DNA of 41,386 nt from Actinoallomurus sp. GTDB lineage: Bacteria > Actinomycetota > Actinomycetes > Streptosporangiales > Streptosporangiaceae. The stretch's first letter is position 1. Each line of letters opens with the position of its first letter. The DNA lies in NCBI GenBank assembly GCA_025964625.1, contig JAOPYL010000037.1:1-41386 (forward strand), written 5' to 3'. Below the pieces are notes generated by a model. The model was not told where the DNA came from. It saw only the letters and a list, made by a program, of their open reading frames with translations, and searched no databases. The translations under genes were made by a program, and so were the position numbers. This document shows, piece after piece, positions 24,645 through 31,457 of the stretch.

Positions 24645-25580
24645 TCAGTCCGTGGGAGCGCCCGCGGGCAGTGACCGCAGCCGAAGCTCGGCACTCTTGG
24701 CGCCGAAGCCCCAGTCGAGCATCGTGGCGGCGTTCTTGAACCGGCGGTTCGGGTCCGTGGTCGTGCTGTTCAGCAGCAGCCCGATGAGGGTACGGCCGCC
24801 GCGCTCGGCCGCGAACAGCAGGCAGTACCCGGCGCCGTCGGTGTGGCCCGTCTTGACGCCGATGGTCCCGCTGTAGGAGCCGAGCAGCAGGTTCGTGTTG
24901 GTCCAGGTGTACGCGTGGTGGCCACCGCCCGTGGCCAGCTTGTACGTCTTGCGCGCCACGACCGCGCGGAAGTTCGTGCTCTTCATCGCGTACCGGGCCA
25001 GCGTGATCAGGTCGTCTGGGGTGGAGTAGCCCTCCTTGTGGGAGGACGTGGGCAGCCCGTCGGCGTCGAGGAGGTGCGTGTCCTTCAGGCCGAGCGAGGC
25101 GGCGGTCTTGTTCATCTTGGCGATGAACTTCGTCTGGCCGGGACCGTACACGTCGGCGAGGGCGTACGCCGCGTCGCAGCCGGACGGGAGCATCATGCCG
25201 TTCAGCAGCTGCCGGACGGTGAGCTTGTCCCCGGTCTTGAGGCCGGCGCTGCTCGCGTCATTGTGCTTGACGTGGTCGACGTAGGACTTCTTGATCGTGA
25301 CCTTCCGGTCGAGGTTCCCCGCGCGAAGCACGACGACCGCGGTCATCACCTTCGTGATGCTGCCGATCGGCCGCTTCGTCGTCGTGGCCCGGCCCCAGAG
25401 CTTCTTCCCCTTGGTCGCGTCGTAGAGGTACGCGCCCTTCGCCGTGATCCCGGACGGCCCCGACTGGGCGTAGACGGCGCCTTCCCGAGCAGGCGCCGTG
25501 GCGTTCGCCGCGGTCAGTGGAACCGCACCGAGCAGGCCGCCCGCGGCGGCGGCGGCGGTCAGGCGGGCACTGAGACGCAT
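24645..25580 (-). CDS. D-alanyl-D-alanine carboxypeptidase (low-molecular-weight PBP, S11)
   Basis: Secreted peptidoglycan-trimming enzyme of 311 aa. A signal peptide (MRLSARLTAAAAAGGLLGAVPLTAANATA) is followed by the penicillin-binding domain with Ser74-x-x-Lys77 (GSITKVMTA), Ser133-Gly-Cys135 in place of SxN (LPSGCDAAYALA) and Lys243-Thr-Gly (VKTGHTDGAGYCLL). SGC is seen in other actinobacterial S11 enzymes. The ATG follows AGGAG at 6 nt. No C-terminal anchor is present. Confidence 0.93.
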   Translation of the reverse strand: MRLSARLTAAAAAGGLLGAVPLTAANATAPAREGAVYAQSGPSGITAKGAYLYDATKGKKLWGRATTTKRPIGSITKVMTAVVVLRAGNLDRKVTIKKSYVDHVKHNDASSAGLKTGDKLTVRQLLNGMMLPSGCDAAYALADVYGPGQTKFIAKMNKTAASLGLKDTHLLDADGLPTSSHKEGYSTPDDLITLARYAMKSTNFRAVVARKTYKLATGGGHHAYTWTNTNLLLGSYSGTIGVKTGHTDGAGYCLLFAAERGGRTLIGLLLNSTTTDPNRRFKNAATMLDWGFGAKSAELRLRSLPAGAPTD

Positions 25581-25917: not shown

Positions 25918-26505
25918 GTGCCGAGCCTGCGCCTGCATGCTCTCGTCTGGCAGGCGGATGACTCACGGCTCCGGCTGGAACTCACGGTCCCGTCCGACGA
26001 GACGGCCGTCGTCGCGGCCGATCCGAAGGCCGGCACGGCGCTGGCCGACGTGCTGCTCGGGCTGACACCGCCGCTCGGCGGGGCCGTACGCCTGGACGGG
26101 CGTGACGTCACGGGCCTGGCCGCGGGGACGCGCGGTATCGCGCTGGTGCCTGTCGGCGGCGGGCTGCTGCCGCACGTGAACGTCGAACGCAACATCGCTT
26201 ACGGCGGAGACCCCGCGCACGCCGAGGACCGGGTCCGTGACCTGCAGCTGGGCGGTATCCAGAAGCAGCATCCGCACGAGCTGTCCCCCGCGCAGCGACT
26301 GCAGGTCGCGGTGGCGCGGGCCCTGTGCCACGCGCGGGAGTCGGTGGCGATCGTGTTCGAGGACCGTTTCGGACAGGCCCCGTTCCACGCGGCGGTGGAC
26401 ACGGCACGGGCGTACGGCGCCACTGTCCTGGTGATCACCGATCTGGAGCGCGGTGTCCTGCTCGGCGACGTCGTGCGGCCGGAGGAGCTGGATGATGCGA
26501 CGTAG
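25918..26505 (+). CDS. Degenerate ABC-transporter nucleotide-binding subunit (pseudo-ATPase)
   Basis: Protein of 195 aa that aligns with the sugar/polyamine importer ATPase core (GGAVRLDGRDVTGLAAGTRGIALVPVGGGLLPHVNVERNIAYG). Each catalytic motif is altered. Walker A is AADPKAGTA (residues 33-41, the lysine position is Gly39). The Q-loop Gln is Val79. LSGGQ is LSPAQ (122-126). Walker B DE is Glu148-Asp149. The switch His is Thr174. It also lacks the C-terminal regulatory domain. ATP hydrolysis is not expected. The GTG start follows GGGAG, and it overlaps the lipoprotein gene by 14 bases. Confidence 0.85.
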   Translation: MPSLRLHALVWQADDSRLRLELTVPSDETAVVAADPKAGTALADVLLGLTPPLGGAVRLDGRDVTGLAAGTRGIALVPVGGGLLPHVNVERNIAYGGDPAHAEDRVRDLQLGGIQKQHPHELSPAQRLQVAVARALCHARESVAIVFEDRFGQAPFHAAVDTARAYGATVLVITDLERGVLLGDVVRPEELDDAT

Positions 26506-27721
26506 GGACGCGATGAAGGGGCTGGCGCTGCTGACGTTGACGGCCGCGTGCGGCGGGCCGTCGAGCAGCGTGCGGGTCGTGGTGGTGTGGAGCGGCTGGG
26601 AGCTGACCCAGTTCCGCCGCGTCCTGGCTCCTTTGGTGAAGGAGGGCACGCGCGTCAGCGTGCAGTCCGGTGGCAACGACCTCGCCGCGCTGGTCGGCAA
26701 CAGGGTCGCCCGGACCGCGGCACCGGACGTCGCGCTGATCGAGCAGCCGCAGATGGTCGACGCCGACCGGAGCCGCCTCGTTCCGCTCGATCGGGTGCCG
26801 GGCATCCCGGCGGGCTGGGCGGACCTGCTGATCCGCGACGGCCAGAGCTACGGCACCTGGTTCAAGGCCGCGCACAAATCGCTCGTCTGGTATCGGCGGG
26901 ATCGCCTCATGGGTGATCCCCCGCAGCACTGGAACGACTGGGTGGACACCTGCCGCACGATGGCGGCCCGCGGGCGGCCGCCGCTGGCGATCGGCGCGGC
27001 CGACGGCTGGGTGCTCACCGACTGGTTCGAGAACACTCTGCTCAGCATCGACCCCGCCATCTACCGCGAACTCGCCGCGGGCGCCGAGTTGTGGACCCAC
27101 GAACATGTGCGTGAGGCGCTGCGACGGCTCGGTGAGATCTGGGCCATACCCGGCGTCTTCTCCGGCGGACCGCGGCGCGCCCTGCTCACCCAGTTCGACG
27201 GCGCGCTGGTCGACGTGTTCCAGCACGGGCGCGCGGCCATGGTCGCGGGGGCCGACTTCGACTACCCGATCATCGAGCAGTTCGGGAACGCCCCGGCGAA
27301 GTGGTTCCGATTCCCGAGCCTGGAGACCGAGCGCCCGCCCCTCATGGTGGGAGGCGACGCGGCCGTCCTCCTGAACCGGCACAGCCGCGGCGGCAGAGAC
27401 CTCATCACGTGGCTGGGCAAACCCGAGGCCGCCCAGATCTGGGCGGAGGCGGGCGGGTTCCTGTCGGTGAACCCGGCTGTGACCGGCTATCCCGGTGACC
27501 TGTCCTCGCTGGCCGACGAGATCCAGAAGGAGACGGCCGGCCGCCCGGCGTTCGATCTGTCCGACCAGCTCGGCGGACGGCTCACCGGAGCCGACGGCCG
27601 CGGCACCTGGAAGATCTTCCAGGACTTCTTCGCCGAGGTCGCGGTCGACAGAGCACCTCTGGAGCGTGCGGCGAACCGGGCCTCGGACGCGCTCGCCGCG
27701 GCGAAGGCGGCGTCGTCATGA
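26492..27721 (+). CDS. Extracellular solute-binding lipoprotein (ABC type)
   Basis: About 409 aa. The N-terminus MMRRRDAMKGLALLTLTAAC has twin arginines followed by D-A-M-K (Tat-like) and a cysteine at position 20 in a near-lipobox (T at -3 is not ideal). The mature protein follows the family-1 binding-protein pattern: VVVVWSGWELTQFRRVLAPLVKE, DVALIEQPQMVDADRSRLVPLD, SLVWYRRDRL, HWNDWVDTCRTMAARG, QHGRAAMVAGADF, and FLSVNPAVTGYPGD near the end. The ligand is probably a sugar or similar solute, unproven. GGAGG lies 6 nt before ATG 26492. The stop overlaps the permease start. Confidence 0.88.
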   Translation: MMRRRDAMKGLALLTLTAACGGPSSSVRVVVVWSGWELTQFRRVLAPLVKEGTRVSVQSGGNDLAALVGNRVARTAAPDVALIEQPQMVDADRSRLVPLDRVPGIPAGWADLLIRDGQSYGTWFKAAHKSLVWYRRDRLMGDPPQHWNDWVDTCRTMAARGRPPLAIGAADGWVLTDWFENTLLSIDPAIYRELAAGAELWTHEHVREALRRLGEIWAIPGVFSGGPRRALLTQFDGALVDVFQHGRAAMVAGADFDYPIIEQFGNAPAKWFRFPSLETERPPLMVGGDAAVLLNRHSRGGRDLITWLGKPEAAQIWAEAGGFLSVNPAVTGYPGDLSSLADEIQKETAGRPAFDLSDQLGGRLTGADGRGTWKIFQDFFAEVAVDRAPLERAANRASDALAAAKAASS

Positions 27722-29382
27722 CCCCGTCCGAGATCCTCCTCCGAGAGGACACCCGCTCTCCGGTGCGCGGGCATCCGCGCCGCCCATGGCGATCCCTCCT
27801 GCACCTCCTGCCCGCCGCGGTCCTCGTCGGCGCGGTCATCGTGCTTCCTCTCGTCTGGGCGATCGTGGTCAGCCTCAAGGACGGCGGCCGCGGCTACGTC
27901 GCGCTCTGGACGGACCATGGCACCAGGAATGCGATCCTCAACAGCCTGGTGTGGCTCGTCCTGGCGCCGGTCGTCTGCCTGTTCGGGCTGCTGCTCGCCT
28001 GGCTGGCCCGCGGGTCCCGGCGTCTCGGCGTGCTCGCGGCACCAATCGCGGTGTCCGCCCTGGTGACCGCGGTGGCGTTCCGGTTGATCTTCGAGCCCGG
28101 CGGGCCCGCGGATGCGGTGAGCACGGACTTCCTGGGCTCGCCGGGCATCTGGCTCGTGCTGGGCCTGGCGTTCGCGTGGCAGTGGGCCGGGCTGGCCGTG
28201 GTGGTCTTCCGGGCCGGCCTTGACGCGATCCCGCGGAGCCTCATGCGGATGGCCCGCGCCTTCGGGCACGGCCCGTGGTGGCGGCTCGGCAAGGTGACCC
28301 TCCCCGCCCTGGTGCCGGCCGGTGCCCTCATACTGATGATCGCGCTGCTCGCCGCCGCGCGGGCCTTCGAACTGATCCTCATCACCGCGCCCGGCTCGGT
28401 GCAGTCCGAGGTCGACGTGGCCGGCGTGCACTGGTGGCGGTGGCGCGCCGACCTGACCGAGGGCACGTCGGCGGCGCTCACCGTGATCTCCTTCCTCTCC
28501 GTCGCCGTCCTGGCGCTGGCCCTGCTCTGGGGGCTGAGCCGGGAATGGCCGAACCGTGTGGAGGAGCCGCAGGAACCACCGCCGAGCCGGCGAGGGCACG
28601 TCTTCGGGATCCTCGCGGTCGCCGTCTGGGTGCTGCCCATGGTGGTGGTGCTGCTGACCTCGCTCCATACGCCGCGGGCCGCCGCGGGCGGCGGGTGGTG
28701 GAGCGGCGGATTCGGCTTCGGCTCCTACCGGCAGGCGTTTGCGAGCGGTGAGCTTTTCAGCGCCCTGCTGAACACCGGCGTCCGTTCGATCATGGCGGCC
28801 TTGCTGCTGCTCATCATCGCGGTGCCGGCGGCGTTCGCGATCGCGTGGGGCGGGTTGTCCCGTCGGGCCGGCCGGATCCTCATCGCGGTCACCACGGTGC
28901 TCGCGGTGGTGCCGCCGCAGACGGTGATCGTCGAGCTCGGGCGCGTGTTCGACGATCTCCACTTGCTCGGCGCACCGACCGCGCTCACCCTGGTGCACAC
29001 GGCCTTCGGCGTGCCGCTCGCCGTCCTGTTGCTGCGCGCCGCGTTCGCCTCCGCCCGTCCCGAGCTGGTCCGGGTCCGGCTGCTGGATCCGGCCCCGGGA
29101 TCGGTGCTGTTCGCGGTCGTGCGCGAGAGCTGGCCGGCCGTGGTCACCGTCGCGGTACTCGAGTTCGTGCTCGTCTGGAACGACTTCGTGGTCGGCCTGC
29201 TGCTCGGCGGCCCGGAGGCCGGTCAGGTGACGTTCGTGCTGTACGACCAGGCGCGGCAGTTCACGACCTCCTCCGGGGTGCTGGCGGCCGGAGCCGTCGT
29301 CGTCACCCTCGTCCCGCTCGCTCTGGTCCTCCTGACCGGCAAGTGGCTGGTCCGGGGCTTCATCCAGGGAGTCCGCCGATGA
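27718..29382 (+). CDS. Fused two-domain ABC permease (MalF-MalG-like fusion)
   Basis: Membrane protein of 554 aa with about 12 helices in two MetI-type halves. Half 1 (about 25-275) has a recognisable coupling motif at residues 165-199 (DAIPRSLMRMARAFGHGPWW...LP) with the conserved glycine Gly184. Half 2 (about 295-550) has a degenerate counterpart at 441-475 (RPELVRVRLLDPAPGSVLF) in which that glycine is lost. The halves are normally separate genes. It is coupled by ATGA overlaps to the lipoprotein gene before it and the STAND-like gene after it. Confidence 0.88.
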   Translation: MTPSEILLREDTRSPVRGHPRRPWRSLLHLLPAAVLVGAVIVLPLVWAIVVSLKDGGRGYVALWTDHGTRNAILNSLVWLVLAPVVCLFGLLLAWLARGSRRLGVLAAPIAVSALVTAVAFRLIFEPGGPADAVSTDFLGSPGIWLVLGLAFAWQWAGLAVVVFRAGLDAIPRSLMRMARAFGHGPWWRLGKVTLPALVPAGALILMIALLAAARAFELILITAPGSVQSEVDVAGVHWWRWRADLTEGTSAALTVISFLSVAVLALALLWGLSREWPNRVEEPQEPPPSRRGHVFGILAVAVWVLPMVVVLLTSLHTPRAAAGGGWWSGGFGFGSYRQAFASGELFSALLNTGVRSIMAALLLLIIAVPAAFAIAWGGLSRRAGRILIAVTTVLAVVPPQTVIVELGRVFDDLHLLGAPTALTLVHTAFGVPLAVLLLRAAFASARPELVRVRLLDPAPGSVLFAVVRESWPAVVTVAVLEFVLVWNDFVVGLLLGGPEAGQVTFVLYDQARQFTTSSGVLAAGAVVVTLVPLALVLLTGKWLVRGFIQGVRR

Positions 29383-31457
29383 GCCCGCGTCGCAGGCAGA
29401 GGTTCGGCCGTGCCGCCGGGTACACCGGGTACGCGGTGGTCAGCGGGGTCGTGCTCCAGATCGTCCGGGAAGTGGCCGCGAACCAGCTGAACGTGCTCGG
29501 CGCGTGGGTGCCGTGGACCGTCATCATCGCGGGCAGCGTGATCGGTCTCGTGCTGTGGATACTTTCGTTTCTGTGGCCGCCGGAACCCCCGGAACCACCG
29601 CTCGAGAGGTGGCTACCACGTGTCGACAAGCTGATCGGGCGGGACAGCACGGTCGCGACGGTCCTGGCGAGGGCACGCGGCCACGGGGTGGTCGTCGTGC
29701 ACGGGCCCAGCGGCATCGGTACCTCTTCCGTGGCCATCACGGCGGCGCGGCTGCTCGTACCCGATGTGGCGGGCCAGCTGTACGTGGACCTGCGCAAAGT
29801 GCGGCCGAGCAGTGTCTGGCCGGCACGGATCCCGCTGCTGCGGGACAGCACCCGGTGGGTGCGGATGCCGGTGCTGCGGACGCTCGGGCTGGACCTCCGG
29901 ATGTCCGACGAAGAGGCCGCACAGGCGGTCGCGGACAAGCTGCGGGGCAGCGGACTGGTGCTCGTGATCGACAACGCCGCCGAGGTGAACGAGGTTCGCT
30001 GGGTCGCGCACGGCGTGGACGGCGCGCGCATCATCATCGCGGGCGAGATAAGGACCAATGAGCTGACCGGTGTCGCCGACGTACCGGTTCAGGGCCTCCA
30101 GCCGGAGGACGCCCTCAGGCTCCTGCGCCACCAGGACGCCGAGCCGACGGGGGGACGCTTCAAGAGACTGGTGGACCGGGTGCGGCACGCGCAGAGTCAC
30201 TCCGACGTTCGGCGGCGTTCCATCGCCGAGCGCGTCAACGACGAACGGAAGCCGGCGAGGGAGCTGGCCGAGCATTACCTCCAGCACCCGCGTGTGGCCA
30301 TCCAGTTCGGCCGCTGGCTGTCCCAGAACCCCGGCGAGAAGATCTCCGATCTGCTGCGCACCCTGGAGCAGGGTGGGCCCGTCGTCGCACTTGATCAGAT
30401 CATGGACAGTGCCCTCGCGGGGATGTCGGGCGCCGCACGGCTGCTGCTCGCGCAGCTCGTCACCGCGCCCGATGTCGAGTTCTCCGACGCGGCCGTGGCC
30501 GCGCTGGCCAAAATCTCGGTGGAGGACGCCGACCTCCACCTGACCGAGCTCAGCCGGCGTTTCCTCGTTCACCGCAGCTCGTCCGGATCCCGCGTGGCGC
30601 GGCCGGCGACACATCTCGCCGGGAAGATCCCGGACAGCCAGGCGGCGAAGGTGCACATTCGCCTCGTCGCCTTCTACGCCAAGCTGGCCGACGCCAACGC
30701 CGTGCTCCTCGGCGGGGAGCAGTACGCCGAGGGGGCGCGGTGGTTCGCGGCCCAGGACGTCACGCTGCTGGGGTTGCTCAGTGTGCCCTCGCCCCCGAAG
30801 CGGGCGGCGTCCCATCTCTGGCAGATCGCGGACGCGCTGGACCTGTGGTTCGCCCGGGAGGAGCGGAATCGCGAGCGGTGGGACGTGGCCGAAGCGATAC
30901 TGGCCCGCGCCCGCGAAGTCGGCGACGTCACCGCACAGGCGGTCGCCCTGATCCGCATGGCCGCGATCGCCCGCCGGGACGCGCGGACCGGCGACGCCCG
31001 GAAGCTGCTCAACGAGGCCGAGGCGCTGGGGCACGGCCGTACCCCGTGGCGGCCGCAGCTGAATACGGAGTGGGCTCTGTGCAACGCCACCGACGGCGAC
31101 CTGGAAGCCGCCCGCAACGACGTGCTGCACGTCCGGCAGGCCCGCCCCCAGCGGGATCTCGAGGGCCGGATGACCGATCTGATCAATCTCGCCGGGATCG
31201 AGATCGGGCTGGGGCGGCACGATCCGGCCGTTGATCACCTTCACAAGGCCGTCAGGCTGGCCAAGCAGGCCCGCAGCATCGCCGGCCGTGCGCAGGCGCG
31301 TGAGCTGACCGGCGTCGCGCTGCGTGGGCAGGGCCATACCGGCGCGGCGGAAGACGCGTGGATCGACGCCGAGAGCCTGTACCGCTCGATCGGCGACGAC
31401 GCCGGCCGGGCCCGCTGCGAACGCCACCGCGTGCTCGAGGAGGGCGGTCAGCCGTGA
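29379..31457 (+). CDS. Membrane-anchored NB-ARC-like/TPR protein with altered P-loop
   Basis: Protein of 692 aa. Two hydrophobic segments (about 14-30 and 43-66) are followed by a Pro-rich linker PPEPPEPP (67-74). A P-loop domain (about 82-260) has HGPSGIGTSS: Gly109...Gly114 with Thr115 where the Walker A lysine belongs. A Walker B-like LVLVIDNA (193-200) follows, then a winged-helix-like region. The C-terminal half has TPR-like repeats, e.g. AVALIRMAAIARRDARTGDARKLLNEAEAL and AQARELTGVALRGQGHTGAAEDAWIDAESLY. It starts inside the permease stop codon, so it belongs to the ABC-like operon. ATP turnover is doubtful; a signalling or scaffold role is inferred. Confidence 0.82.
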   Translation: MSPRRRQRFGRAAGYTGYAVVSGVVLQIVREVAANQLNVLGAWVPWTVIIAGSVIGLVLWILSFLWPPEPPEPPLERWLPRVDKLIGRDSTVATVLARARGHGVVVVHGPSGIGTSSVAITAARLLVPDVAGQLYVDLRKVRPSSVWPARIPLLRDSTRWVRMPVLRTLGLDLRMSDEEAAQAVADKLRGSGLVLVIDNAAEVNEVRWVAHGVDGARIIIAGEIRTNELTGVADVPVQGLQPEDALRLLRHQDAEPTGGRFKRLVDRVRHAQSHSDVRRRSIAERVNDERKPARELAEHYLQHPRVAIQFGRWLSQNPGEKISDLLRTLEQGGPVVALDQIMDSALAGMSGAARLLLAQLVTAPDVEFSDAAVAALAKISVEDADLHLTELSRRFLVHRSSSGSRVARPATHLAGKIPDSQAAKVHIRLVAFYAKLADANAVLLGGEQYAEGARWFAAQDVTLLGLLSVPSPPKRAASHLWQIADALDLWFAREERNRERWDVAEAILARAREVGDVTAQAVALIRMAAIARRDARTGDARKLLNEAEALGHGRTPWRPQLNTEWALCNATDGDLEAARNDVLHVRQARPQRDLEGRMTDLINLAGIEIGLGRHDPAVDHLHKAVRLAKQARSIAGRAQARELTGVALRGQGHTGAAEDAWIDAESLYRSIGDDAGRARCERHRVLEEGGQP

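Follow-up and report, generated by a model that had tools for sequence, protein, structure and literature searches.

Here we describe a four-gene operon at positions 25,918–31,457 of a 41,386-nucleotide stretch of Actinoallomurus sp. DNA (contig JAOPYL010000037.1, assembly GCA_025964625.1; hereafter the window). The operon encodes an ATP-binding cassette (ABC) subunit, a solute-binding lipoprotein and a fused permease, all resembling parts of a sugar importer, together with a protein that resembles signal transduction ATPases with numerous domains (STAND) and carries tetratricopeptide repeats (TPR). The four-gene set is kept intact in many Streptosporangiaceae and both of its ATP sites have been lost; hence the operon probably senses or scaffolds rather than pumping sugar with ATP. 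Our favored reading, to which we assign a probability of roughly 0.47, is that of a transmembrane receptor derived from a sugar importer whose use of ATP has been lost. The genes are coupled and keep one order at every locus read; the losses at the nucleoside triphosphate (NTP) sites are shared, selection on the ABC subunit is purifying, and the segment that follows its Q-loop is kept.

All four genes lie on the plus strand. Their coupling and identities, as given in the original prediction, agree with the open reading frame coordinates and with Pfam matches to ABC_tran, SBP_bac_1, BPD_transp_1 (twice) and, weakly, AAA, nSTAND and TPR families. Gene 1 (25,918–26,505, 195 amino acids) encodes the nucleotide-binding subunit, a pseudo-ATPase that matched ABC_tran at E = 2.3e-7 (32 bits against a cut-off of 25); its nearest solved relatives are ModC 2onk, 3d31 and SugC. 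Gene 2 (26,492–27,721, with 26,495 as a possible start) encodes a solute-binding lipoprotein of the sugar (CUT1-like) type (SBP_bac_1, E = 1.1e-8), gene 3 (27,718–29,382, 554 amino acids) a permease in which SugA-like and SugB-like halves are fused (BPD_transp_1, E = 7.8e-14, two stretches), and gene 4 (29,379–31,457, 692 amino acids) the STAND-like/TPR protein, predicted to be anchored in the membrane. Successive genes overlap by 14, 4 and 4 bases; the second ATG of gene 2, as an alternative start, would give an overlap of 11 with gene 1, and many relatives are spaced likewise. We fetched the stretches around the 27 non-window loci of the family search described below and measured overlaps from candidate starts, leaving out three loci that came from a search of the order. 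Genes 1 and 2 overlap by 8–17 bases in 26 of the 27 fetched loci, genes 2 and 3 by 4 bases in 24 of the 27, and genes 3 and 4, again by 4 bases, in 25 of 26.

Within the genus, three of seven other genomes carry all four genes, coupled, with identities of 54–68% (gene 1), 62–71% (gene 2), 69–79% (gene 3) and 37–59% (gene 4). Across the family, which we take to be Streptosporangiaceae, the fused permease (E ≤ 1e-40) was found in 28 of 297 genomes, representing 7 of 68 genera. Genes 1, 2 and 3 are adjacent and in the same order at all 28 loci, and gene 4 is present at 27; in the remaining one (L067) the contig ends at gene 4's place. When the gene 1 profile was run against 297 genomes of the order, 31 matched at 1e-32. 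Thirty of these are of the pseudo-ATPase kind (1.6e-68 or better) and all belong to the same family, the share of other families in this sample not being stated; three new loci carry the whole operon and bring the total to 31 (30 besides the window). The other match (G011, E = 3.4e-33) was considered as an intermediate with intact motifs and rejected, being an ordinary ATPase with GCGKTT and LSGGQ; its fetched stretch held no matches to genes 2–4. In a class sample of 246 genomes, the best outside match to the gene 1 profile reached 105 bits (1.2e-29), where the window gave 239, and in a phylum sample of 396 genomes (threshold 1e-31) the sole match was the window's own genome. A single-protein search of contigs returned only three distant ABC matches. 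Nonomuraea gerenzanensis (NZ_LT559118.1) has the same operon; it is 99.6% identical over 13.3 kb to a locus already included (L087), which makes it that strain or a close neighbor, and was left out of the locus count.

The motif columns of the ABC subunit were read from 28 aligned rows and three further loci, 31 in all. The Walker A Lys, the Q-loop Gln, LSGGQ and the switch His are missing from all 31 subunits; none holds the catalytic set of an ATP-driven importer (these four together with the Walker B DE), and no ortholog with intact motifs was found in the operon at any of the 31 loci. The Walker A equivalent (residues 33–42, positions 26,014–26,043) carries Gly39 for Lys. This place is occupied by Ala in 24, Gly in three and Ile in one of the 28 rows, GxxGxGK[ST] occurs in none of them, and the three added loci lack Lys as well. 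At the place of the Q-loop Gln stands Ala (21 rows), Pro (4), Val (2, with Val79 in the window) or Leu (1). In the signature helix (residues 119–136, positions 26,272–26,325), LSGGQ is replaced by LSP[AV]Q, LSPDE, LAHDE and similar forms (LSPAQ in the window) and RLxVAxaRa is kept. The aligned rows thus agree with the three losses first read from the window at Lys, Gln and LSGGQ, and with two further readings in part. The switch His is indeed gone, but its stand-in is not Thr174 as had been proposed: a profile alignment to 3d31 places Asp175 there (switch-loop equivalent, positions 26,425–26,445), and Asp is found in 28 of 28 rows. Similarly, Glu148 and Asp149 are present as described, within a Walker B equivalent remodeled to E-D-[R/H]-x-G and followed by a shortened D-loop (positions 26,353–26,373); the region reads [IVF]ED[RH]xG, with E148, D149 and G152 invariant in all 28 rows. 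The proposed swap of DE to ED, however, may instead be E148 in the place of the Walker B Asp, since the family consensus has a six-residue gap at the D-loop when aligned to the 3d31 profile. These motif states are fixed in the 28 rows and the three further loci, and so are not due to chance. As a control, GK[ST] is kept in all 19 outside ABC loci that were read, of the 25 outside class-search matches. A single-sequence structure prediction of the subunit had a mean predicted local distance difference test score of 45.9 and was left uninterpreted.

The stretch that spans the Q-loop and a probable permease-docking segment (residues 76–92, positions 26,143–26,193) has lost the Gln and kept LLPHLTV..N, with P78, L83, P85 and N92 invariant. 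In MalK-type subunits, the part after the Q-loop faces the coupling helix of the permease. This post-Q-loop segment is the best kept of the eight that we measured, with a mean majority fraction of 0.87 against 0.64 for the whole gene 1 protein; the switch and the signature helix reached 0.82 and 0.81, respectively.

Gene 4 has lost its Walker A Lys too. Its Pfam matches (AAA_22, nSTAND1, AAA_16 and TPR_12) are all weak and below threshold; its profile matched the STAND-TPR regulator AfsR (8k60) at 5.5e-21, and the alignment covers both the NTPase and the TPR parts. The degenerate P-loop, GPSGIGTSSV (positions 29,691–29,738), has Thr115 where Lys is expected, as the original prediction noted. 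The place holds Thr in 25 and Ala in two of 27 rows and Thr in the three added loci; hence a Walker A Lys is present in none of 30. The loop reads G-x-G-T-S in 25 of the 27 rows, GIGAG in the other two and GTS in the added loci. By contrast, AfsR has GKT at the corresponding P-loop, and so do three of the four paralogs in the window's own genome whose match extends over the P-loop; the fourth has GKS. A later stretch has AG in 25 of 27 rows versus VTAR/VTSR in three own-genome paralogs. The Walker B Asp of a STAND NTPase is present, as D-N, in all 27 rows aligned to AfsR. The match omits the N-terminal DNA-binding part of AfsR, a Streptomyces antibiotic regulatory protein domain; there gene 4 instead has its predicted membrane anchor, a hydrophobic segment by hydropathy with its peak at residues 37–55 (positions 29,487–29,543). 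For 24 of 27 gene 4 members, the N-terminal part scanned shows at least one hydrophobic peak; in some, the scan began as much as 75 residues before the aligned start. Toward the C-terminus, residues 602–660 (positions 31,182–31,358) form a TPR stretch (TPR_12, E = 2.4e-6; 28.1 bits, just below the curated cut-off of 30.1). Of the 27 members, 14 matched TPR_12 with an E value no higher than 0.01, and the TPR part of AfsR aligns to these C-terminal repeats.

Genes 2 and 3 encode sugar-importer parts. The binding protein is a lipoprotein, with the lipobox LTAAC (positions 26,537–26,551) and Cys20 read from the sequence; the N-terminal Cys is present in 27 related gene 2 proteins, and the nearest solved relatives are sugar-, xylo-oligosaccharide- and trehalose-binding proteins. 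The permease matched SugB (1.4e-24) and SugA (2.3e-16) of the trehalose importer, and its 12 hydrophobic peaks correspond to two BPD_transp_1 domains with six transmembrane segments each. The permease does not have the EAA coupling motif in both halves. The first coupling loop (positions 28,219–28,311) has the same length in all rows and has Arg at the place of the EAA Glu in 28 of 28. The second (positions 29,035–29,142) has lost the EAA signature, the A/G/S-xxx-G pattern being found in none of the 28 rows. A lenient EAA pattern matched the first loop in 23 of 28 rows and the second in none; under a strict one, which demands an acidic or amide residue at its start, no row had a match in either half. 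The F-to-P stretch of the second loop is 31 residues long in the window and 29–31 in most other rows; Nonomuraea-clade rows have 25, and L077 and L078 have 33, as does SugB when counted by eye. Among permeases of the window's own genome (30 of 65 matches), the best-scoring segments contained Gly in 29 and began with Glu or Asp in 20. In this rough scan the own-genome controls scored 5.9 on average, loop one 4.7 and loop two 2.4; the control is flattered because its best scores are drawn from both strands. Compared with the CUT1 trehalose importer LpqY-SugABC (7cad, 8ja7), which likewise has a sugar-type lipoprotein, SugA- and SugB-like permease parts and a SugC-like nucleotide-binding fold, the operon differs in its fused permease halves, its extra STAND-like/TPR gene, its second coupling loop without the EAA signature, and its single ABC gene, which lacks the catalytic motifs and is about half the length of SugC.

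We next weighed other explanations, beginning with decay. With the catalytic motifs gone and a patchy occurrence in the family (28 of 297 genomes), the operon might be the remnant of a decaying importer. Against this, reading frames are open in 31 loci and new motifs are conserved. Nei-Gojobori ratios of nonsynonymous to synonymous substitution (dN/dS, own script, eight pairs of loci) were 0.20–0.46 for gene 1, 0.24–0.64 for gene 2, 0.16–0.43 for gene 3 and 0.24–0.75 for gene 4, and 0.38, 0.39, 0.29 and 0.55, respectively, for the window and L031; high-GC codon bias probably lowers dS, so these values lie on the upper side. Gene 1 is thus well under 1, and the constraint on the dead subunit is similar to that on its neighbors in the operon. 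The earlier judgment that this is not plain decay is upheld by the conserved operon, the conserved degenerate motifs and purifying selection, and we consider decay largely refuted and extremely improbable. Pairwise distances between loci correlate at 0.84–0.94 across the six gene pairs (27 loci with all four genes), a pattern that could arise by common descent alone and that was computed without control genes.

The original prediction set two readings side by side, a sensor derived from an importer and a transporter powered by another ATPase. A real sugar importer driven by a shared ATPase of the MsiK/UgpC type encoded elsewhere, with the dead subunit pairing with or regulating the live one, seems to us unlikely, if still worth serious attention. 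Actinobacterial sugar importers commonly share an ATPase (CebE/MsiK and DasABC-MsiK). A check of the same genome found two ATPases above the curated cut-off of the UgpC family, candidates for the MsiK type, and the length of the first coupling loop is preserved, as is its Ala/Gly frame in most rows. Operons of the MsiK-dependent sugar importers of Streptomyces are not known to contain an ATPase gene. These importers resemble our operon in having a sugar-type binding protein and a permease without an adjoining gene for a working ATPase, whereas here a dead ATPase gene remains and the coupling loops have changed. The loss of the second-loop EAA signature in all 28 rows speaks against MsiK-type drive and weakens this reading, as does the invariant first-loop Arg when set against the Gly and acidic residues of the own-genome permeases; the dead STAND protein would also be left unexplained. 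Less probable again is that the products of genes 1 and 4 act as ligand-gated switches, binding nucleotide without hydrolysis or another ligand in rebuilt pockets. The new invariant acidic residues in catalytic places (E-D-[R/H]-x-G and Asp175) would suit such a role, as would the GxxGxG[T/A][S/G] loop and AfsR-like D-N of gene 4, but GxxGxGK[ST] is absent from every gene 1 row and the Lys from both proteins in all members read. We give slightly less credence still to an ATP-independent facilitator, assisted by the binding protein, that would allow uptake without pumping: binding protein and permease are well conserved, yet this leaves the pseudo-ATPase and the TPR protein without an evident function, and we saw no sign of an ion-coupling site.

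A receptor derived from an importer appears to fit better than drive by another ATPase, as we infer from the GlnH-GlnX-PknG precedent and from a fusion at L067 described below. GlnH (a lipoprotein), GlnX (a membrane protein) and PknG (a TPR kinase) belong to a proposed nutrient-sensing operon of Actinobacteria (PMC6069109, PMC8546545). That system likewise combines a lipoprotein binding protein, a membrane protein and a TPR protein in one operon; it has a four-helix-bundle sensor and a kinase output, whereas our operon has an importer permease, a pseudo-ATPase and no kinase. Neither a kinase nor a four-helix-bundle domain was among the Pfam matches of the operon proteins at E = 0.01.

In the receptor that we envisage, the lipoprotein would bind an extracellular sugar-like ligand and then dock on the fused permease, which would carry a conformational change across the membrane. 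The pseudo-ATPase may sit as an adaptor under the first permease half, via the coupling loop of constant length, and could pass the change on to the membrane-anchored STAND-like protein. The latter, without a nucleotide switch of its own, would scaffold the complex, and its TPRs might recruit or release a cytoplasmic partner. We hold rather more tentatively the stronger proposal that a whole importer has become a receptor without any NTP chemistry, in which binding protein, permease and pseudo-ATPase relay conformationally to a pseudo-STAND/TPR scaffold. If true, such an NTP-free relay would be a signaling architecture of its own, fixed in an actinomycete lineage that includes Nonomuraea. ATP-driven transport is the defining trait of ABC importers, as the nucleotide switch is of STAND proteins; here the defining residues of both are lost jointly in one conserved operon, a natural test of what the two folds can do without ATP. 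A receptor would moreover show a route from transporter to sensor and point to a sugar-like signal in Nonomuraea and its relatives. A literature search, with most subscription papers outside its reach, returned no description of this operon or of an importer with a wholly dead ATPase.

Several points weigh against the receptor. No recurrent regulator gene was present among 20 flanking proteins from 10 loci. The loss of Walker residues predicts, without proving, the loss of ATP binding. The permease is the best-conserved protein of the operon, as would be expected of a transporter too. SugA, a working permease, also lacks the first-loop EAA Glu and has Asn in its place, so the Arg there means little alone. 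In the genus, the second loop falls only some two residues short of that of SugB and retains the Asp, and some other loci may keep an acidic-Gly pair; the loop is therefore altered rather than plainly deleted. Lastly, the cyclase-like resemblance of the L067 fusion is weak (E = 0.057, no Pfam match).

This fusion (L067:3035–4549, minus strand) places the gene 1 homolog in one frame with approximately 245 upstream amino acids, and there is no start codon in the 60 codons that precede the ABC part. The best solved match of the upstream part is the cyclase 5d0g, and neither Pfam nor NCBIfam gave a match. If the resemblance is real, the dead subunit would be tied to a signaling-type domain. L067 is the odd one out, a single case of fusion in which the gene 1 homolog does not overlap gene 2.

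The 20 flanking proteins differ from locus to locus, and the four genes thus stand alone as a single unit. Among the flanks are an MFS transporter, a luciferase-like protein, a dienelactone hydrolase, an AMP-binding enzyme, a penicillin-binding protein, a zinc-finger protein, SpoIIE, ANTAR, a beta-lactamase and an ADP-ribosylglycohydrolase. In the window, a gene for a D-alanyl-D-alanine carboxypeptidase (Peptidase_S11; 24,648–25,565, minus strand) is divergent from the operon, and none of the stretches fetched for the 30 other loci contains it. An apparent cluster of six loci with this frame was rejected as a conserved flanking gene: it is not a carboxypeptidase and is likely an antisense shadow of gene 1. 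An anti-phage defense system was also rejected, as none of the four proteins matched a PADLOC model. At the divergent locus L084, flanked by an ABC ATPase and a glycosyltransferase, the ABC-family ATPase (L084:2063–3007, minus strand; PF00005, 98 bits) adjoins the operon divergently; no such neighbor was seen among the other flanking proteins scanned. Some Nonomuraea-clade loci encode, on the strand of gene 1 and approximately 2.3–3.5 kb upstream of it, a further TPR-like protein (L146:11005–12999 and L185:15821–18001, minus strand), with weaker upstream matches in L079 and L082. At L086, a zf-HC2 zinc-finger gene, anti-sigma-like, lies downstream of the operon in convergent orientation (L086:8932–9624, minus strand).

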